A DNA stretch of 64,000 bases from positions 147,875 to 211,874 of the forward strand of contig MKVQ01000030.1 of assembly GCA_001899635.1 (NCBI GenBank), given 5' to 3'. Below the pieces are notes generated by a model that saw only the letters and a list, made by a program, of their open reading frames with translations, did no database searches and was not told the origin of the DNA. Origin of the DNA: Myxococcales bacterium 68-20 (lineage in GTDB: Bacteria; Myxococcota_A; Polyangia; Polyangiales; Polyangiaceae). A program made the translations under genes and the position numbers. This document shows, in pieces, positions 7,698-61,944 of the stretch. Within the stretch, counting starts at the first letter, position 1. Each line of letters starts with the position of its first letter.

Positions 7698-9173
7698 TCA
7701 TCGCATGGCTGAGGTCCGAGCGACCCGCGCCATCAGCGCTGCCCGCTCCTTCGCTTCCACTCGAACGCGGAGCTCACGGAACCGCGCTCCGCTCAGAGCG
7801 AGCGCTGTGCTGCTCGTTGGGGCGCCCTCCTTCCCGACCTCGCTGTCTCGCTCGAAGGTCGTGTCGTCCGGGCTCTTCTCGGAGGTGAGCTTGCCGTAAT
7901 GGATGTAGCCATCGTAGGTCTCGGCGCGGGTGCCTCTGGAGCTTCGCAGCTCGGGCTCCAGACCAAACGCGTTCTCCTCGCACTTCGTGCTCGGGCGCGT
8001 CGTCGAGACGAAGAGCGGGTCCGGCGGTGCGTGGCTCAACGCGGACGTGAGCGTCGTCGGTTCTCCTGGCAGTGCCTGCGGTTCGCCATACCAGATCACG
8101 CTGCCGTTCCCGAACGCCGGCGCCACCGAGAACACTTTGTCTTTCGTCAGCTCGTACTCGTGCGTCATGCGGCTGCCGGCCGAAAACTCGTGCTTGTTCG
8201 TATGCGCCGCGCCCATGTGGAGGAACATGCGATCCGTCGGAGAGCGCATCGCCGACTTCATGTTGTAGTAGATGACCTCTTCGCGGCGCGCGAACCAGAG
8301 CTCGTCTTGAAGGCCGGCTTCGAGGAACGTGCTGACCCACAGTGCGTGGGTCATCGCGTTGAGCCGGTCGCAGTCCGCAGACGTGAGCTCGGCGCAGATG
8401 GCGCTTTTCGAAGTCATGATGTGGTCGAAATAGGCGTTCGCCTCCGACGTGGTCGGCGGTCCGCTCGGCAGCGTCGCGAGCACGGTGTCGGCCTGGGTCG
8501 TGAGCTTGGTCGCGACCTCCCTGATCGCGGCGATCGGCGTCTGAGGCATGTACGCGTAGTCGACCGCCACCACTCGGATCGGGATCCCCTTCTTCGCGAG
8601 CTCCCGGGCGGTGACCGTCAGGATGCGCCCGAACATGTTCGGCGCGAGCTGCTGGAGCCATTGGTCGACGGCCTCGTCCTCTCCGGTCGCCACCCAACTC
8701 GTCAAGCGCTCGCCCATTTCCATCGGGAGCTCGAAGGCGAGGACGTTCACCTGATTCCTCGTTGCGAGCTCCTCGAGGAGGATCGAGCTCATGATCCCGA
8801 TCTCGTTCGTCCCGTGGACCTCACCCATCATGAAGATCTTCTGCGAGCCATAGAGCTCGACGAGCGGCCGGACGTCCCACACCGCGTCTGCGCCTTCCCC
8901 ACAGCGCAGAGGGATGGCGCTCTCCTTCACGAAGCTCGCGATCGCCGTCTTGGTCGTCGGAGCGGGCTCGAGGTTCGGGCACGAGACCGGTTCGATGGGC
9001 TCCGAACACGTTCGAGCGCCCCTTCCGGCGTCGGGCGTGCTCGGGTCGGGCGCCGCATCCTCTTCGGGCACCGTGACAGGTAGATCGTCGTCCGGCACAA
9101 GCCGGCTCTCGCCGCAAGCTAGGACAGCCCCGGCAACGGCAGCCAGAAGACACGCAATCGCGCTCACTTTCAT
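7698..9173 (-). CDS. EreA/ChaN/Tiki-like superfamily lipoprotein
   Basis: This 491-residue exported protein has a signal ending in a lipobox-like AVLAC (Cys about residue 20). The core resembles the erythromycin-esterase/ChaN/Tiki superfamily: IFMMGEVHGTNE matches the GE-x-x-HG-T motif with the paired Glu and His, and FELPMEMG matches the second conserved Glu strand. A C-terminal HMGAAHTNKHEF supplies further His residues. The fold family includes hydrolases and haem-binding proteins, so the activity is not predictable. I placed the start at 9173 because of GGGAGGT seven bases upstream and the signal peptide; the frame is open further upstream but reads as noncoding there. Confidence 0.65.
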   Translation of the reverse strand: MKVSAIACLLAAVAGAVLACGESRLVPDDDLPVTVPEEDAAPDPSTPDAGRGARTCSEPIEPVSCPNLEPAPTTKTAIASFVKESAIPLRCGEGADAVWDVRPLVELYGSQKIFMMGEVHGTNEIGIMSSILLEELATRNQVNVLAFELPMEMGERLTSWVATGEDEAVDQWLQQLAPNMFGRILTVTARELAKKGIPIRVVAVDYAYMPQTPIAAIREVATKLTTQADTVLATLPSGPPTTSEANAYFDHIMTSKSAICAELTSADCDRLNAMTHALWVSTFLEAGLQDELWFARREEVIYYNMKSAMRSPTDRMFLHMGAAHTNKHEFSAGSRMTHEYELTKDKVFSVAPAFGNGSVIWYGEPQALPGEPTTLTSALSHAPPDPLFVSTTRPSTKCEENAFGLEPELRSSRGTRAETYDGYIHYGKLTSEKSPDDTTFERDSEVGKEGAPTSSTALALSGARFRELRVRVEAKERAALMARVARTSAMR

Positions 9174-15945: not shown

Positions 15946-16086
15946 GCAGCCCTTCGAGATCTCGATTCGTGAGCGGTTTCGCGCCGGACGACTTGGCGCG
16001 CCGATCTCCCACACGGCGGCGTGCCTCGAACGTCACCAAACGGGGCGACGACGGTGCATTGGTAGCTGCGCTACCTTCCGAGCAGC

Positions 16087-18828
16087 ATGCATTCCGCACG
16101 TCGCTTCGGCCTCGTCGCTCCACTGCTCGCCATCATCGCCGCGTGCGGGTCCTCCGACGAGAGCACCCCCATGCGGGGCCCCGGCCGTCTCGAGCCCGAG
16201 CTCCACTACGAGCTCCTTCCCTGGACGAAGGAGCTCACGGCCGAGACGCTCGCGCGCACGAAGGTCGGCGACGACGATGGCAGCGTGCGATTCCAGGGAG
16301 CGCCGAGCCAGCTCGTCGGCCTGAAGAAAGGTGACGTCTTGCTCGCTGGACAGAGCGCGACGACGCCTCGCGGGTTGCTGCGCCTCGTCCTCGAAGTGCG
16401 CGACGAAGGCGGCGAGATGATCGTCACGACCGCGCCCGCCCCCATCCAGGCGGCGTTCCGCACCCTGCACGCACGCCTCCCGGCCGGCACCGTCGCACTC
16501 GACGGCGCCCCCGCCGACCCGTTCGGAACGAAGCCTCAGACGAAGTACGCCGTGGGCAAGAGCGTCGGCGGAGGCAAGAGCCTCGACTGGCGCGTGTTCG
16601 ATCAGGACGGCGACAGGAGCACCAAAGACGATCAGCTCTACGTAACCGGCCAGATCACGGGCAAGGTGGCGCTGACCGCCTACGTCGACCTCGACTGGCT
16701 CGACGAGCCTGCGCGGATCGCCGAGGAGATCGCGTGCCTGAGCACGGTCGGCGTCGTCTGCAAGCCGAGCCTGCCCGACGTGATGCTCGGCGTTCGTGCC
16801 GAGGCGCTCGCGGAGGTGTCGATCGACGCCGAGGGCGCCGCGTCGAAGCGCTTCGAGAGCGACGAGATCCCGATCGACGGCACGAACGTCGACTTGCCGC
16901 CGCTCGTCGCGGGACCGGTCGTCATCTACCCGTCGATCGACTTCGTCGCGCAGGTCTCGGGCAGCGCCACGAGTCGTTTCCATGCGGCCGCCGGGATCAA
17001 GTACTCGGCCGTGGCCGAGGCTTCCGTGGGGCTGACGAGCGGCGGCGCCTTCACTCCGCCGACGTTCACCCGCGAGATCGTGCCCCCCACGGTCGAGGCG
17101 ACGCTCTCGTCCGAGGTGAAGGCGTCGGTCGGACCACGCATCAAGCTGATGTTCTGGGACACGTTCGGCCCGTCCGTCTCGGCGCTCGGCTACGCAAAGC
17201 TCCGCGCCGATCGCGAGAAGCAGCCGTGCTTCGCGGTCGACGCGGGCGCGGAGCTCGGCGTGAGCCTCTCGCTCAAGGTCCCGTGGAAGCTCTTCGGCGG
17301 CGGCGCCGAGGCGCTCGGCGACGCGCTCGGTCTCTCCGGCGACATCTACAAGAAGCGCTTCGGCCCCTATGAGCTGTTCAGCGTACCGGACGTCTTGACC
17401 GGCGCGTGCAGCGCTCTCCCCTCGAACGTGTATCCGCCGGGCGAAGGACCGTCCGAGGAGGCGTACAAAGCGCCCACGTTCGCGCCCTGGTCACGCCGCT
17501 TCGCGGACGACTCGACCCGGCTCTATCAGTACCCGTACAGCTTCGAAGCACCTCAGACGGTCATCCACGCCGAGAAGAGCATCGACGGCGGCTGGTTCGC
17601 GAGCGGGCGCGGCATCTACGGCCTCTTCAAGATCGGCGAGGGAGGCGATCTCCGCTGGTCGAAGAACGTCAAGATCGCGCCGCTCGACGACCGCGAGTAC
17701 GAGACCGAACGGCCTTCGACGTTCGCGACCCAGGCGCGAAACACCTCCGTGTGGGTGGCCTCGTCGCGCTTCTCGCTGATGCAGCTCGACCAGGACGGCG
17801 ATCTCCTCTGGGCGCGGCGCTTCGTCCCGAGGGCCCCCGCGGGCGATCCGGCGGGTGATGCGCTCTTCTCGCTCGGCAGCGCGCTCGACGCCGTCTCCGT
17901 CGTCGAGACGATCGACGGCGGCCTCTTCGTCCTCTACTCGCTGCAGAAGACGTCGAGCGACGGCCCGGCGATCCTCGTCCGCGTCGACGCGCGAGGCGAC
18001 CTCCTCTGGGCCAAGCAGATCGCGTTCGAGACCAAGAAGACGATGCTCGGCGTGATGGCACTCGACGGCGACGACGTCCTGCTCGCCGGGCAGTCGTGGG
18101 TCGCGGGAGCCGAGGTCGCGCGCGTCCTCCGCGTGCGCGGCGACGGGACGCTGGCGTTCGCGAAGCGGCTCGGCGTCTGCGGGAGCGAGCGCGTTCGTCC
18201 CGTTCAGCTCGTCCGCCTTGCTTCGGGTGCGTATGCGCTGCTCGGCGGCTATGGCCTCGCGCCCGAGCGCTCGTTCATCCTCCAGATGCCCGCCGACGCT
18301 TCGGCGGCCTCGCTGTTCGCCTGGGACACGAACGACGCGCTGTCCGATCTGCGCGCGAGCCAGATCGCGCAGCTGCCGACGACGGGGTTCGTCACCGCCT
18401 CGCAGATCGTCCCCACCGTCGGCACGTCGATCCGCCTCGCTGCGCACGATGCGCAGGGCACCCTCGTCCGCGAGCGCGAGCTCACACTGACGACCGGCGG
18501 CACGCGCCGCGAGACGTTCCCCGGCGCGATCCGGCTCACGAACGACGGCGGTCTGCTCATGTTCGCGCACAGCGAGGAGTCGACGTTCGCGCCGCCCGCG
18601 CTCTGGGTCAGCAAGATCCCCGCCCGCACGCTGGAGGCCGACTTCTCCGGCACGTCGGTGACCGTCGGCACACCGGTCTCCTCTCCGAGACCTTCGTGTC
18701 AGGCGACGTTCTCGCCCGAGGAGGGCTTCGCGCTCACCGCTCTCTCGCTCGAGACCATCGACATCACGGACAAGGTCACCGTCACCTCGGTTGCGGCTCG
18801 CCCCGAAGTCCTCTTGCCGAAGCCCTGA
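16087..18828 (+). CDS. Large lipoprotein, unknown function, beta-propeller-like C-terminal half
   Basis: This 913-residue protein begins with a signal ending in IIAAC (Cys about residue 19), a clear lipobox. The N-terminal half (about 40-440) is not recognised. It contains a Gly-rich stretch and an acidic DQDGD site that could bind calcium. The C-terminal half (about 490-840) has repeated blades with aromatic-Ser-Lys/Arg-W motifs (GLFKIGEGGDLRWSK, LMQLDQDGDLLWARRF, LVRVDARGDLLWAKQI), as in PQQ-like/delta-60 propellers of myxobacterial lipoproteins. A cell-surface binding role is an inference. It stands alone between the protease and the RluA gene. Confidence 0.7.
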   Translation: MHSARRFGLVAPLLAIIAACGSSDESTPMRGPGRLEPELHYELLPWTKELTAETLARTKVGDDDGSVRFQGAPSQLVGLKKGDVLLAGQSATTPRGLLRLVLEVRDEGGEMIVTTAPAPIQAAFRTLHARLPAGTVALDGAPADPFGTKPQTKYAVGKSVGGGKSLDWRVFDQDGDRSTKDDQLYVTGQITGKVALTAYVDLDWLDEPARIAEEIACLSTVGVVCKPSLPDVMLGVRAEALAEVSIDAEGAASKRFESDEIPIDGTNVDLPPLVAGPVVIYPSIDFVAQVSGSATSRFHAAAGIKYSAVAEASVGLTSGGAFTPPTFTREIVPPTVEATLSSEVKASVGPRIKLMFWDTFGPSVSALGYAKLRADREKQPCFAVDAGAELGVSLSLKVPWKLFGGGAEALGDALGLSGDIYKKRFGPYELFSVPDVLTGACSALPSNVYPPGEGPSEEAYKAPTFAPWSRRFADDSTRLYQYPYSFEAPQTVIHAEKSIDGGWFASGRGIYGLFKIGEGGDLRWSKNVKIAPLDDREYETERPSTFATQARNTSVWVASSRFSLMQLDQDGDLLWARRFVPRAPAGDPAGDALFSLGSALDAVSVVETIDGGLFVLYSLQKTSSDGPAILVRVDARGDLLWAKQIAFETKKTMLGVMALDGDDVLLAGQSWVAGAEVARVLRVRGDGTLAFAKRLGVCGSERVRPVQLVRLASGAYALLGGYGLAPERSFILQMPADASAASLFAWDTNDALSDLRASQIAQLPTTGFVTASQIVPTVGTSIRLAAHDAQGTLVRERELTLTTGGTRRETFPGAIRLTNDGGLLMFAHSEESTFAPPALWVSKIPARTLEADFSGTSVTVGTPVSSPRPSCQATFSPEEGFALTALSLETIDITDKVTVTSVAARPEVLLPKP

Positions 18829-54165: not shown

Positions 54166-54185
54166 CCGCGCCTCACGTGAATCCG

Positions 54186-55295
54186 ATGCATCCCTCGCCC
54201 AAGCCAACCCCGCGGCTCTCTGCTCTCGATCGCTTCCTCCCCGCCTGGATTCTCCTCGCGATGGGCGTCGGCGTCGGTCTGGGGCGAGCCTTCCCCGCAC
54301 TCGGTCCCGCCCTCGACACGGTGAAGGTCGGCGGTGTGTCGCTTCCTATCGCCGTCGGCCTCTTCTGGATGATGTATCCGGTGCTGGCGAAGGTCCGCTA
54401 CGGCAAGCTCGGCTCGGTCGGAGCGAACGGCAAGCTCTTCGCGACCTCGCTGGTTCTCAACTGGGTCCTGGGCCCGGTCGTCATGTTTGCGCTGGCGTGG
54501 CTCCTCCTCCCGGATCTGCCCCACTACCGTACGGGCCTCGTCTTGATCGGCCTCGCACGCTGCATCGCGATGGTCTTGATCTGGAACATGCTGGCGAAGG
54601 GGAACAGCGAGATCGCCGCGCTGCTCGTTGCACTGAACTCCGTGTTCCAGATCCTCTTCTATTCGGTGCTCGGCTGGTTCTTCCTCAGCGTCGTTCCGAC
54701 GTGGCTCGGCGCCGAAGGAACCGCCTTCCACATCTCGATGTGGGAGATCGCGAAGAGCGTGCTGCTCTTCTTGGGCCTTCCGCTCGTTGCCGGCGCCGTG
54801 ACGCGGTTGGCCCTCGTACGACGGCGCGGCGAGGCTTGGTACGAACGCCGGTTCCTGCCGAAGGTCGGGCCGATGGCGCTGCTCGGGCTCCTCTACACGA
54901 TCGTCCTGATGTTCGCGATGCAGGGCGACAAGATCGTCGGCCTTCCGATGGACGTCCTGCGGATCTCCGTGCCGCTCATCCTCTACTTCGTCATCATGTT
55001 CACGGCGTCGTTCCTCATTTCGAAGAAGCTGGGGTTCTCTTACGAGGAGACCGCCTCGCTCTCTTTCACGGCGGCGGGTAACAACTTCGAGCTGGCCATC
55101 GCCGTTGCGGTCGGCCTCTTTGGGATCGCCTCGGGAGAGGCGCTCGCCGGGGTCGTAGGGCCTCTCATCGAGGTGCCTGCGCTGCTGGCGCTCGTCTACC
55201 TATCGCTCTGGCTGAAGCAGAGGCTTTACGGACAGCCGATCGAGAACGAGCCGCTGACCACTCCAACCGACGTCGCCGAAGGAGAGCTGCGATGA
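54186..55295 (+). CDS. ACR3-family arsenite efflux permease
   Basis: This 369-residue inner-membrane exporter of As(III) belongs to the ACR3 (BART) family. About ten membrane segments are readable. The conserved Cys lies in IGLARCIAMVLIWNMLAKG and family motifs include NFELAIAVAVG and ALLVALNSVFQ. The ATG at 54186 is chosen; GTG at 54177 is possible. It overlaps arsC by four bases. Confidence 0.93.
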   Translation: MHPSPKPTPRLSALDRFLPAWILLAMGVGVGLGRAFPALGPALDTVKVGGVSLPIAVGLFWMMYPVLAKVRYGKLGSVGANGKLFATSLVLNWVLGPVVMFALAWLLLPDLPHYRTGLVLIGLARCIAMVLIWNMLAKGNSEIAALLVALNSVFQILFYSVLGWFFLSVVPTWLGAEGTAFHISMWEIAKSVLLFLGLPLVAGAVTRLALVRRRGEAWYERRFLPKVGPMALLGLLYTIVLMFAMQGDKIVGLPMDVLRISVPLILYFVIMFTASFLISKKLGFSYEETASLSFTAAGNNFELAIAVAVGLFGIASGEALAGVVGPLIEVPALLALVYLSLWLKQRLYGQPIENEPLTTPTDVAEGELR

Positions 55296-55699
55296 AGACG
55301 ATCCTCTTTGCGTGCGTTCACAACGCCGGCCGTTCGCAGATGGCGGCGGCGTGGTTCAACGCGCTGGCCGAGCCGTCGAAGGCAACGGCCATCTCCGCCG
55401 GTACGGCCCCAGGGAGCGGGGTTCACCCCGAGGTCGTGCTCGTGATGCAGGAGGCCGGGATCGATCTCTCCGTAGAACGCCCGCGCCTGCTCGACGCCCC
55501 TCTCGCCCAGACGGCGTCGCTGCTGATCACGATGGGCTGCGGGGAGCAGTGTCCGATCGTGCCCGGCGTCGAACGTGACGACTGGCCGCTGCCGGATCCG
55601 AAGGGACTGCCCATCGAACACGTCCGTGACATCCGCGAAGACATTCGACAGCGCGTCGAGCGGCTCCTCGTCGAACGTGGGTGGGCCCGGTCCCATTGA
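55292..55699 (+). CDS. arsC: ArsC, arsenate reductase (LMW-phosphatase, thioredoxin type)
   Basis: A 135-residue protein of the low-molecular-weight phosphatase fold. The P-loop is FACVHNAGRSQM (C-x5-R), and ITMGCGEQCP supplies the further redox Cys. It reduces As(V) to As(III) for export by ACR3. It starts with ATGA overlap after acr3. Confidence 0.93.
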   Translation: MKTILFACVHNAGRSQMAAAWFNALAEPSKATAISAGTAPGSGVHPEVVLVMQEAGIDLSVERPRLLDAPLAQTASLLITMGCGEQCPIVPGVERDDWPLPDPKGLPIEHVRDIREDIRQRVERLLVERGWARSH

Positions 55700-56006
55700 A
55701 CGTCGCCGTATTGGCTAGAGCCTCGCCCACGGTGCTCCGCGTCGAGGCCGAGAGCACCTCCGTGCGGGCGACCGCGTGTCAGAGCCCTCGCTTTCCATCA
55801 GCCCAATACGGCTTCGTGCGAATGCTCCGCCGCGGCCACCCAGCCTGCCACCTCCAGAGTCACGGCCGGTCGGAGCGCACGCGTCGCCGGCTGAACCCGC
55901 CGCCTGCCGAGGTCGAGCGCGGGATGACGATGTTCCGGAATCTGTTGCGTAGATGCCCCGCCGATGACCCGGTGCTCATTACGAACATCGTCTACGATGG
56001 CCGTAA
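55700..56006. other. Gap after arsC, with PadR operator at its end
   Basis: No gene is visible. GCCGTATTGG at 55705-55714 is repeated inverted as CCAATACGGC at 55803-55812, about 90 bases apart, a possible trace of a small mobile element. Confidence 0.4.
55986..55999. promoter_or_regulatory. CATCGT-CT-ACGATG palindrome, candidate PadR operator
   Basis: A perfect 6-2-6 inverted repeat lies 7 bases before the padR-type start codon, where a repressor would block transcription or translation initiation. Confidence 0.55.
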
Positions 56007-56342
56007 ATGCTCTCCGCCGCCGACCGCGAGATCCGACTCGGGATCTGGAAGCTCCACATCCTGCATCACGCTGCGGCTCGTGAGGTCTGGGGGACGTGGC
56101 TTCTCGAAGAGCTGGCCGAGCACGGGCACACGTTGAGCCCCGGGACGCTGTACCCGGCGCTTGCGCGCATGGAGCGCAACGGCTGGCTGCGACGAACGGG
56201 AAGCGCTCCGCACGCGCGGGCGCGGCAGACGTTCCGCATCACGCCCGCGGGGAAGCGCCTACTCGAAGAGCTGCGACGGGAGGTGACGGAGCTCTACGAG
56301 GAGGTCGTCCTCGAGCGCGTGTCGCGGAAAGGAGGACGGTAG
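56007..56342 (+). CDS. PadR-family regulator of the chromate transporter
   Basis: A 111-residue winged-helix protein. Readable core: LEELAEHGHTLSPGTLYPAL, LARMERNGWLRRTG and RQTFRITPAGKRLLEELRRE. It lies 58 bases before chrA in the same direction, and PadR-ChrA pairs are known in other bacteria. The palindrome upstream suggests autoregulation. Confidence 0.85.
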   Translation: MLSAADREIRLGIWKLHILHHAAAREVWGTWLLEELAEHGHTLSPGTLYPALARMERNGWLRRTGSAPHARARQTFRITPAGKRLLEELRREVTELYEEVVLERVSRKGGR

Positions 56343-56400
56343 TGAACCTCGCTCGCTTCCATCGAGCAGGTGGCACGCGCGCGGCCGCCGCCGGCGTCCG

Positions 56401-57666
56401 ATGAGCACGCCCCCCCGGACTCCCGACGCGACGGACACGCCGCCGGTCGAGCCTCACCCCGCGACTGCCCGCGGCCTCGCCGAGGTCGCCGGGACGTTCC
56501 TGCGTCTCGGGTGCCTCTCGTTCGGCGGACCGATCGCGCACCTCGGCTACCTACGCGCGGAGATCGTCGAGAAGCGCAGGTGGCTCGACGACGCTCACTA
56601 CGGCGACCTCGTCGCGCTCTGTCAATTCTTGCCGGGCCCCGCGAGCAGCCAGGTCGTGTTCGCGCTCGGCATGCACCGGGCCGGCATCCTCGGCGCGCTG
56701 GTCGCGTCGGCGTGCTTCACGCTGCCCTCGGCGCTGCTCATGATCGGCTTCGCCTACGGCGCGGCGCGCGTCGGCGACCCCGGCGGCGCGGGGTGGCTGC
56801 ACGGGCTCAAGCTCGCCGCGGTCGCCGTCGTCGCGCAAGCCGTCTGGGGCATGGGCAAGAAGCTCTGCCCCGACCGCGCTCGCGTATCGGTATGCATCCT
56901 CTCGGCCGCCGTCTTGCTCGCGATGCCGGGAGCAGTCGCGCAGCTTGGCGTCATCGCCCTCGGCGGCGTCATCGGTTGGTGGCTGTACCGCGACACCATC
57001 TCCGTCGGCGCCGCACCGTCCACGTCGGGCGGCAGCGCATCGTGGCTCTCAGCGCACCTGTTCGCCGCGGCGGCGCTCGTGACGTTCGCGGCCCTGCTCG
57101 TCGTCCTTCCGGCGCTCGCGTCCGCGACCGGCTCACGATCCGCTGCCGTGTTCGACAGCTTCTATCGTTCAGGCTCGCTCGTCTTCGGTGGTGGTCATGT
57201 CGTCCTTCCGCTGCTGCGCGCCGAGATCGTGCCAAGAGGCTGGCTCAGCGATGATCGGTTCCTGGCCGGCTATGCCGCCGCGCAGGCGCTGCCGGGACCG
57301 ATGTTCGCGTTCTCGGCATACCTCGGAGCGGCGATGGGGCCCGGACCCGCGAGCTGGGCGAACGGCTTCTGGTGCCTGCTCGCGCTCTTCCTCCCCGCAT
57401 GGCTTCTCATCGGAGGCGCGCTCCCGTTCTGGCACCGGCTCCGCACGAAGCGCTGGGCCCAGGCCGCGCTCGCTGGAGCGAACGCGGCCGTCGTCGGGGT
57501 ATTGCTCGCTGCACTCTACGACCCGGTGTTCGCGGAGAGCGTGCACGGGACACGCGACGTCGTGGCCGCCCTCATTGCCTTCGGGCTCCTCGAGCATTGG
57601 AAAGCGCCGCCGTGGCTGGTGGTCGCCGGTATGGCGGCAACGGGCCAGTGGTTGCTCGGAGCGTAG
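56401..57666 (+). CDS. chrA: ChrA, chromate efflux transporter (long form)
   Basis: This 421-residue membrane protein has two CHR domains. The first includes FLRLGCLSFGGPIAHLGYLR and LCQFLPGPASSQVV; the second includes FYRSGSLVFGGGHVVLPLL and QALPGPMFAFSAYLGA. It exports chromate from the cytoplasm. The ATG at 56401 follows padR by 58 bases. Confidence 0.93.
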   Translation: MSTPPRTPDATDTPPVEPHPATARGLAEVAGTFLRLGCLSFGGPIAHLGYLRAEIVEKRRWLDDAHYGDLVALCQFLPGPASSQVVFALGMHRAGILGALVASACFTLPSALLMIGFAYGAARVGDPGGAGWLHGLKLAAVAVVAQAVWGMGKKLCPDRARVSVCILSAAVLLAMPGAVAQLGVIALGGVIGWWLYRDTISVGAAPSTSGGSASWLSAHLFAAAALVTFAALLVVLPALASATGSRSAAVFDSFYRSGSLVFGGGHVVLPLLRAEIVPRGWLSDDRFLAGYAAAQALPGPMFAFSAYLGAAMGPGPASWANGFWCLLALFLPAWLLIGGALPFWHRLRTKRWAQAALAGANAAVVGVLLAALYDPVFAESVHGTRDVVAALIAFGLLEHWKAPPWLVVAGMAATGQWLLGA

Positions 57667-59452: not shown

Positions 59453-59662
59453 GGCCACCCTCGTCTCGTAAACGACTCGAATGGGCGCGACCAACTAAGC
59501 GACGCGGATCGATACGTGGATGTGGGACGCGGGATCCGAAGCCCCGACGCCGTGCTCGTGCCGAGCTCGGCTGCATCACCGCCGTGCTTCGCGAAGATCG
59601 TTCGGCGAGCTGTAATGATCCCACCCCGCGGACCGTCTTCCCCATCGAAGGAGACAGAAACG

Positions 59663-59842
59663 ATGAGTGGATCTGGATCGTCGAATGGGTGTGCCTGCAA
59701 GTCGTGTGGGAACAGGAGCTGCCCTTGCGTGGGGACCAAAGCGCCCAAGGCGGGCGAGTGTTGCTGCGGTCCCACCTGCACCTGCGGCCCGCAGTGCGAG
59801 TGTGGCCCCGACTGCAACTGCCCTGCGGCGAAGAACGGCTGA
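59663..59842 (+). CDS. Metallothionein-like Cys-rich peptide
   Basis: A 59-residue peptide with 14 Cys, arranged as CAC, CPC, ECCC and a repeat CTCGPQCECGPDCNC. This pattern suits binding of several Cd/Zn/Cu ions. AAGGAG lies 12 bases upstream. It ends 7 bases before the CorE-like sigma factor, and cadD is close by, so the sigma factor probably controls it. Confidence 0.85.
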   Translation: MSGSGSSNGCACKSCGNRSCPCVGTKAPKAGECCCGPTCTCGPQCECGPDCNCPAAKNG

Positions 59843-59849
59843 GGTTCTC

Positions 59850-60482
59850 ATGATGGCTTCGGTCCGCTGCGCGAAAGCCGAGACGAGCGACGGCAAGCGC
59901 CCGTCGCTCGAGGCTCGGCTCGCTTCAGGCGATGACGCCTCGCATGCCCGCGTCGACGGTGCGCGGGAAGCCATCGCGCGCGAGCTCGCGGCGGACCGAG
60001 CTACCTACCTCGCCTTCATACGCAACCGCGTGCGCTCGGGAGCCGACGCCGAGGACATCCTCCAGCAGGCCCTCGTGAAGGCGACCGAGCGCGCGACGGA
60101 CCTACGCGCCCCGGAGCGCACACGTGCCTGGTTCTTCCAGATCCTCCGGCGCACCCTCGCGGATCACCTCGCGCGGTGGGCCGTTCGCGAGGCGAAGCTC
60201 GATGAGCTCTCGGTCGAGCTTGCCGAGGCGACGCCGGAGGAGGTCGCGACCTGCGCGTGCAGCCTCGGACTGCTCGCGCAACTCCGCCCGGAGTACGCGG
60301 AGATGCTCCGTCGCATCGACATCGACGACGAGCCGCTGCCCGCGGCCGCCGCCGCGATGGGGATCACCACGAACAACGCGACGGTTCGCCTGCATCGCGC
60401 GCGAAAGGCGCTCCGCGAGAAGCTCCAGGACCTGTGCGGGACACAGTCGCTGCGCGCTTGCCTCGACTGCAGCTGCGGCTGA
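59850..60482 (+). CDS. CorE-like ECF44 sigma factor with Cys-rich metal-sensing parts
   Basis: A 210-residue ECF sigma factor. Sigma2 includes DAEDILQQALVKATE and sigma4 includes GITTNNATVRLHRARKALRE. A CxC (C135, C137) lies between them and the C-terminus has C196, C204, C207 and C209 (CGTQSLRACLDCSC). This is the design of CorE (ECF44) of Myxococcus xanthus, where metal binding to the Cys switches DNA binding without an anti-sigma factor. Here one position of the tail, where I expect Cys in CGTC, is Gln. It follows the metallothionein gene directly. Confidence 0.82.
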   Translation: MMASVRCAKAETSDGKRPSLEARLASGDDASHARVDGAREAIARELAADRATYLAFIRNRVRSGADAEDILQQALVKATERATDLRAPERTRAWFFQILRRTLADHLARWAVREAKLDELSVELAEATPEEVATCACSLGLLAQLRPEYAEMLRRIDIDDEPLPAAAAAMGITTNNATVRLHRARKALREKLQDLCGTQSLRACLDCSCG

Positions 60483-60512
60483 TGGATTGTCCGAGCGTCG
60501 CGGAGCCGTCCG

Positions 60513-61286
60513 TCACCACAGCTCGTGGCTGACGACGCGTACGCCGCTCGAGAACCATACCGGCAGGATCGTGCCCCACAGCCCGCCACCGAAGGTGAAG
60601 TCGAGCTGGATGTGGTCGTTGAAAATCTGCCGGAAGCCGGTCTGATACGCGCCGCCCGCGCGCGCGGAGTAAGGGTCACCGGAGAAGATCTCTCCGATGA
60701 GATGGAAGTCGAAGAGCGTCTCGACCTGCGTTCCAATCCCCCACGTCGCCTTCGCGGGCGCGAGATCCGGGGCCGACACGGCCGAGAGCCCGACGTTCGC
60801 GTGGATGAGGAGGTCGTCCTCCTTGAAGAACGCCTGCGTGACCGCCAGGTACGTGAAACCGCTCCATCCCGGTGCCTCGAAGCCGCCGCGGCCCGTCGGA
60901 CCGACGCCGCCCACGACGACGCCGACACCCGGCAGCCCATTCGGGACGGCATCGTGGAGGAGGAACTTCCCCTGCAGGATCGGACCGCCGAAGGCGTACT
61001 TCGGCTTCTCGGGCCGCTGACCGAGGGGCGTGATGCCGTGCACGCCGCCGAGCGTCAGCTCCATCCAGCTCACCGGACCTACCGCCGGGAGCACCCAATG
61101 CTGGAAGCTCTGCCGATCGCGCCGCCAGTAGGTCTCGATCTGAACGTGCCCCTTCCCGACCGTGTGCGCGTCGTCAGTGACGAACGGCCGGATCGCGTGC
61201 GCCTGACCGGACCAGAACGTCGCGATCGTGACTGCAAAGACGAGGGCCGCGCGAAAGCCGACCCGTGTTCGGAAGCCCACGAGCAC
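60513..61286 (-). CDS. Outer-membrane beta-barrel-type protein
   Basis: A 257-residue exported protein. A signal ends near GQAHA (about residue 31). The remainder has alternating beta strands, such as GHVQIETYWRRDRQSF and PILQGKFLLHDAVPNGLPG, and ends in an aromatic residue (HELW), which suits an outer-membrane barrel. Similar proteins occur as putative transporters in metal loci. It follows cadD by 58 bases in the same direction. The start is GTG 61286 or 61280. Confidence 0.7.
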   Translation of the reverse strand: MLVGFRTRVGFRAALVFAVTIATFWSGQAHAIRPFVTDDAHTVGKGHVQIETYWRRDRQSFQHWVLPAVGPVSWMELTLGGVHGITPLGQRPEKPKYAFGGPILQGKFLLHDAVPNGLPGVGVVVGGVGPTGRGGFEAPGWSGFTYLAVTQAFFKEDDLLIHANVGLSAVSAPDLAPAKATWGIGTQVETLFDFHLIGEIFSGDPYSARAGGAYQTGFRQIFNDHIQLDFTFGGGLWGTILPVWFSSGVRVVSHELW

Positions 61287-61344
61287 CGGCGCGGAGGCTA
61301 CACGACATCACTTCGCGGTGCAGCGTCTCGAGGCACCTCCACAC

Positions 61345-61944
61345 TCAGTGTTTGCCGAGTCGTAACGCGCCGACGAGAGCGCCCGAGGACCAGAGGATGT
61401 GGAGACCGAGCCCGATCAGGACGAGCGGCGCGAGCACGTGCCCCCAGCGGTCGAGCACGCGAGCGATCCCCGGCGCCCGTGCGAGCACACGCGCCAGGAA
61501 GCACCACACGAAGACGAGCAGCGCGAACGTGACGATGACGATCGCGATCTCGAGCAAACCACGCCGCGCGAAGAGCGGGGCGTAGACGGCGAGGTTGTCT
61601 CCGCCGTTCGCGATCGTCACCGCGGCGATCGACAGAACGCCGATCGCGGGCGGATCGCGGGTTCCTTCGTCATCGCGCTGGCGTAGCGCTCGCAGCTGGA
61701 GCACGCCGATGGCGATCGGACCGAGCCCGAGCCACCCCACCCATTCAGCCGGGACGAGCGCCGCGGCGAACGCGAGCAGCAGCGCGACGGCAACGAGCGC
61801 GCCGATGCCGAGCAACTGCCCCGCAATCGTCGCCCGCAGCCGGCTCCCCGACGCGTAGAGGACCAGCAGGACGAACAGATCGTCGATGTTCGTGGCAGCG
61901 AACGCAGCAGTCGCCTGCACGAAGGTGGCCAGCGCCTCGAGCAT
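61345..61944 (-). CDS. CadD-family cadmium resistance transporter
   Basis: A 199-residue inner-membrane protein of the CadD/LysE superfamily. Motifs include FAATNIDDLFVLLVLYASG and TIANGGDNLAVYAPLFA, the two acidic repeats that mark this family. About five membrane segments are readable. It forms a probable operon with the following outer-membrane protein gene. Confidence 0.85.
   Translation of the reverse strand: MLEALATFVQATAAFAATNIDDLFVLLVLYASGSRLRATIAGQLLGIGALVAVALLLAFAAALVPAEWVGWLGLGPIAIGVLQLRALRQRDDEGTRDPPAIGVLSIAAVTIANGGDNLAVYAPLFARRGLLEIAIVIVTFALLVFVWCFLARVLARAPGIARVLDRWGHVLAPLVLIGLGLHILWSSGALVGALRLGKH

Follow-up and report, generated by a model that had tools for sequence, protein, structure and literature searches.

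A metallothionein-like gene ahead of a CorE-like ECF sigma factor that lacks Cys184: a probable autoregulated metal-buffer operon

Introduction

The ECF sigma factor CorE of M. xanthus drives copper oxidase and ATPase genes. In the 64-kb stretch of DNA analyzed here (the window), which belongs to a genome of 11.9 Mb, a gene for a sigma factor resembling CorE lies directly behind a short gene for a cysteine-rich, metallothionein-like (MT-like) protein. The question raised by this locus is whether the two genes form a unit in which a metal-sensing sigma factor controls the buffer for the metal that it senses and, if so, which metal this might be.

Gene Organization of the Locus

The MT-like and sigma genes are both encoded on the forward strand, with 7 nt between the stop codon of the former and the start of the latter (Table 1). 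The MT-like protein, with 14 Cys in 59 residues, gave no family match in Pfam, NCBIfam or the PDB, and the position of its gene is kept across relatives. The sigma factor possesses Sigma70_r2 and Sigma70_r4_2 domains, both over the Pfam cut-offs, and its AlphaFold2 model (mean pLDDT 87) has ECF sigma factors as its best PDB matches in Foldseek. These were just the expected matches, with poor whole-chain superposition, and the last block of the model, corresponding to the tail, is of low confidence (mean pLDDT 54). No anti-sigma-like gene was noticed on inspection of the neighboring genes.

Table 1. Position, strand and supporting evidence of the features of the locus, in window coordinates.
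Feature	Position	Strand	Evidence and remarks
CorE-type promoter, TGTAA-N18-CGTC (candidate)	59611-59637	+	Alignment of MT upstream regions; 25 nt before MT start
MT-like gene	59663-59842	+	ORF, 59 aa, 14 Cys; first gene of the putative operon
CorE-like ECF sigma gene	59850-60482	+	ORF, 210 aa; Pfam, alignments, AlphaFold2 model
Linker CxC, C135-A-C137, between sigma2 and sigma4	60252-60260	+	Kept in alignments A1 and A3
C-terminal Cys-rich tail, CGTQSLRACLDCSCG	60435-60479	+	Alignment with M. xanthus CorE (L128/L185) and CorE2 (L187)
"Outer-membrane protein" (OMP) gene	60513-61286	-	ORF without family match
CadD-like gene	61345-61944	-	Pfam Cad, 100 bits; below NCBIfam cad cut-off

A sequence-only reading of this DNA had grouped the MT-like, sigma, cadD and OMP genes into one cluster. 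The sigma identity stands, the CadD-like one has its Pfam Cad match and the first gene is MT-like by its length and Cys content, but the OMP label is unproven, as the product of this gene matches no family. Further upstream (54180-57666) lies another metal-related cluster, which encodes an SBF transporter, probably of the ACR3 arsenite type, an ArsC-like protein of the LMW-phosphatase fold, a PadR regulator and ChrA. The best NCBIfam match of the PadR regulator is the Rv3488 family, below cut-off.

A Candidate CorE-Type Promoter Before the MT-Like Gene

The aligned upstream regions of the MT-like genes have TGTAA-N17/18-CGTC in common. In the window the site reads TGTAATGATCCCACCCCGCGGACCGTC, with TGTAA at 59611-59615 and CGTC at 59634-59637. 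All of the 26 MT-sigma operons scored (26/26) have TGTAA-N17/18-YGTC 20–90 nt before the MT ATG, and the chance of such a site is ∼0.0015 per 200 nt of a composition like that of the window's upstream sequence. With spacings from 12 to 23 counted in the fetched loci, N17 was found 22 times, N18 14 times and all other spacings together six times, certain sites being counted twice because they occur in two overlapping loci. Across the 11.9 Mb genome the N17/18 sites are not enriched, numbering 20 vs. 38 for a reversed control pattern, and the argument for the motif is therefore one of position and conservation. Four of these 20 sites belong to the MT operon and to three genes of a copper region that holds canonical CorE paralogues.

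The paper on CorE gives its site in general terms, with AAC in the -35 element and G in the -10 element, 16–18 apart. The window motif agrees with this general kind of site (conserved -35, G in the -10, distance of 16–18), and it is not claimed as new. The feedback loop between metallothionein and sigma factor that the sequence-only reading had imagined is plausible, because the two genes adjoin on one strand behind a promoter of the CorE type.

The Cysteine Set of the Sigma Factor

As had been proposed, the sigma factor is of the CorE type, sharing with CorE (M. xanthus MXAN_3426, former ECF44) an ECF sigma architecture with a linker CxC and a Cys-rich C-terminal tail, as evidenced through Pfam and alignments. 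The architecture of CorE2 (M. xanthus, Cd/Zn; former ECF44, now ECF238) is the same, and the CxC is called essential in CorE and CorE2 (PMC8999054). All 19 homologues of alignment A1 share C135, C137, C196, C204, C207, and C209, and the CxC and the four tail Cys are at least 90% conserved in alignment A3.

The tail of M. xanthus CorE (L128, L185) is CGTCASHGCLDCTC, then a final Cys at the C206 distance. Alignment with this tail places C196, Q199, C204, C207, and C209 of the window sigma at C181, C184, C189, C192, and C194 of CorE, and so the window sigma shares C181, C189, C192, and C194 with CorE but has neither C184 nor C206. The CGTQ in place of CGTC that had been pointed out in this tail is thus accurate, with the codon of Q199 at 60444-60446. 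In CorE, C184 is the inactivation (switch-off) residue and C189 is the main copper-activation residue, and a C184A variant is constitutive without copper and is raised further by copper (PMC3107203). C181, C184, C192, and C194 were conserved across all 21 family members of 2011 (PMC3107203); three of these four are present in the window sigma, the fourth being Q199, and it is therefore assigned to a variant clade of CorE-like sigmas rather than to the standard members.

The CorE2 tail is Cys173-Cys174-X3-Cys-X2-Cys-X-Cys, with metal specificity set by Cys174 (PMC9023288), and M. xanthus L187 (CGTTCCRKGCVDCPC) matches this pattern. Neither Cys173 nor Cys174 is present in the window sigma which, lacking both C184 and C174, therefore has a third tail arrangement. 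A changed choice of metal, raised earlier as a consequence of the glutamine, would fit, by analogy, the roles of C184 in CorE (PMC3107203) and of C174 in CorE2 (PMC9023288).

A Clade of Sigma Factors Without C184

The 124 distinct CorE-like sigmas compared here came from genome searches and a scan of named genomes, a sample seeded with the window protein and hence biased towards it. Cys is absent at position 184 in 26 of them, the position being occupied by Q, E, G, D, T, S, R, L or a gap. In a tree built without the tail, these 26 sigmas and L012, which does have the Cys, form a single clade, with SH-aLRT support of 94 in the 124-sigma tree and 100/97 in a careful 63-sigma tree. The replacement of C184, first seen in the window as a local change, is therefore real but is a trait of the clade as a whole and not a local substitution. 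Myxococcota contribute to the clade, as do records whose titles name Deltaproteobacteria, Gammaproteobacteria, Candidatus Binatia, and Candidatus Sericytochromatia; the non-Myxococcota records are for the most part MAGs, and their taxonomic assignment is the one that the records give. CorE-like sigmas are also carried by plasmids, at <60% identity.

MT-like genes were called by length and Cys content using our own cut-offs, with the MT of L178 (GTG start) entered by hand. Called in this way, an MT directly precedes the sigma gene in 27 of the 124 distinct CorE-like sigmas, from several genera and from named records assigned to several phyla. A cultured bacterium from the family of the window's genome, Minicystis rosea (L106), has the operon as well. 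Within the clade the order is found in 19 of 27 members, with no MT found in the remaining eight. Divided by tail type, the MT is present with 18/26 sigmas without C184 vs. 9/98 with it (Fisher p 1.8e-9), a value that overstates independence because the loss of C184 has essentially one origin. Phylogenetically independent pairs for MT and C184 loss were too few to be informative, and with an association of essentially single origin its independent replication is weak.

The spacing of the promoter also differs between these sigmas. N18 occurs in 14 of 20 loci of C184-less sigmas, the six other clade members with a site using N17, vs. N17 in 41/46 of other sigmas (Fisher p 3e-6, which again overstates independence, there being essentially one origin of C184 loss). 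The window sigma thereby differs from CorE in adjoining an MT and in having N18, in contrast to the N17 that most of the canonical CorE-like loci in this set have. Most CorE2-like loci have N18 sites (L159 has N17), and an N18 site is likewise found in the M. xanthus CorE2 locus, before a CDF-like gene (CDF by sequence only). No MT was found upstream of M. xanthus CorE2 in the stretch fetched.

Several further loci were observed. In the copper region of the window's own genome (L009, contig C36), two canonical CorE paralogues with the tail CGTC are encoded on the reverse strand at 8274-8921 and about 16069-16600, and N17 sites stand before CopA-like, HMA, and small lipoprotein-like genes. At L068 (contig C41:278472-278498, also of this genome) an N18 CorE-type site, a fifth of the 20 in the genome, lies 14 nt ahead of the gene for a P1B ATPase with a YHS domain, near which a Cys-rich Csp-like protein is encoded. 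In L212 a canonical sigma that has C184 follows two successive MT-like ORFs, and two N17 sites are found upstream. MT-like ORFs lie behind N17 sites in L084 and L095 as well, that of L084 directly after a canonical CorE-like sigma, and these two loci suggest that ordinary CorE factors may act on MT genes too.

Proposed Circuit and Candidate Metal

We regard it as probable that the MT-like and sigma genes constitute an autoregulated two-gene metal-buffer operon, with Zn or Cd as the most likely metal and Hg as a possible one. Excess metal would bind the Cys of the sigma factor (C135/C137 in the linker and C196/C204/C207/C209 in the tail), and the metal-loaded sigma would recognize TGTAA-N18-CGTC before its own operon, co-transcribing MT and more sigma in a fast positive feedback. 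The MT would then take the metal away, and the sigma factor would be shut off by this route in place of the C184 self-inactivation of CorE. Several observations count against this operon: C174, the Cd/Zn determinant of CorE2, is absent from the clade, six clade members use N17, and an MT was not found in 8/27.

The metal sensed leans towards Zn, Cd or Hg when gene neighborhoods are considered, these metals being favored by the MerC, ZnuA, FUR, and CDF neighbors in part of the clade. A MerC gene lies beside the MT-sigma pair in L023, L173, L178, and L215, four members of a single subclade, and L178 also has a FUR-family regulator as neighbor. ZnuA, a CobW C-terminal domain, NicO, and DksA are neighbors in L162, whereas L010 and L107 have ACR_tran efflux, L114 has cation efflux, and L109 has MerR. 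The neighbors in the window are mixed, comprising CadD and, in the upstream cluster, the SBF transporter of likely ACR3 type, the ArsC-like protein with its phosphatase fold, and the chromate transporter ChrA. The MerC protein encoded beside the pair is possibly a mercury or zinc transport partner.

Bacterial metallothioneins under a metal sensor are already represented by SmtA/SmtB and MymT/RicR, in which a repressor is released by metal (PMC10141476), whereas a metal-activated sigma factor is proposed here. OrbS of Burkholderia cenocepacia, an on-board iron sensor, is likewise an ECF sigma in which a C-terminal Cys cluster senses metal, but it is inhibited by the metal and has another Cys motif and target (PMC9023288). 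The open-access literature searched, which left the CorE2 paper, a 2019 review, and the 2021 ECF reclassification outside its bounds, held no description of a metallothionein under a CorE-like sigma; priority for such an operon is not proven.

Alternative Explanations

The same operon may instead serve a copper sensor like CorE, with the MT buffering Cu(I) and the sigma factor acting within a copper regulon together with the two CorE paralogues, an explanation that we consider unlikely, though the genome offers points in its favor. The canonical paralogues reside in a copper region where N17 promoters precede CopA-like and HMA genes, the N18 site at L068 precedes a YHS P1B ATPase that resembles a copper pump and adjoins the Csp-like protein, and C189, the residue chiefly responsible for copper activation of CorE, is retained in the window sigma. 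C184, however, is lost throughout the clade, the neighbors of some clade members suggest Zn, Cd or Hg, and the spacing of the MT promoter is unlike that of the copper sites in most genomes with both kinds.

The loss of C184 may alternatively have left the sigma factor constitutively active and deprived of proper metal regulation, with MT made at a standing level, as could be imagined from the constitutive activity of CorE C184A without copper (PMC3107203). Copper still raises the activity of that variant (PMC3107203), however, and the CxC and the other four tail Cys, preserved throughout A1 and to at least 90% in A3, argue for retained metal sensing, so that we hold this explanation to be quite improbable. 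We give even less credence to a single metal-resistance unit in which the sigma factor would drive cadD and the OMP gene as well. Its genes do all lie within 2.3 kb, but the reverse strand carries cadD and the OMP gene, which are convergent with the sigma gene. A promoter motif shared with cadD had been anticipated in the sequence-only reading; the site before the MT-like gene at 59663 was found, but TGTAA-N16-19-CGTC with at most one mismatch was found before neither cadD nor the OMP gene, and tblastn found neither gene beside the loci of any of the fetched relatives. For these reasons cadD and the OMP gene are rejected as operon partners and left out of the unit.

Implications

Returning to the autoregulated two-gene operon, the production of MT by a metal-activated sigma factor of the same operon would, if true, represent a compact activator-plus-buffer circuit. 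To our knowledge, bacterial metallothioneins are all under metal-released repressors. A cassette of two genes would also be small enough for a biosensor part. More tentatively, and with somewhat less than even confidence, the sigma factors of this clade may constitute a functional class of their own among metal-dependent sigma factors, the third after CorE and CorE2, having C-x7-C-x2-C-x-C without C184 or C174. With the MT, such a sigma would form a self-contained device whose response is ended by the buffer and not by a redox switch of the sensor itself, and N18 vs. N17 would help to separate it from the copper regulon that CorE controls in that cell. The clade varies naturally at the very Cys on which CorE and CorE2 depend for activation, inactivation, and choice of metal, and how the tails of these sigma factors read metals may therefore be directly testable.
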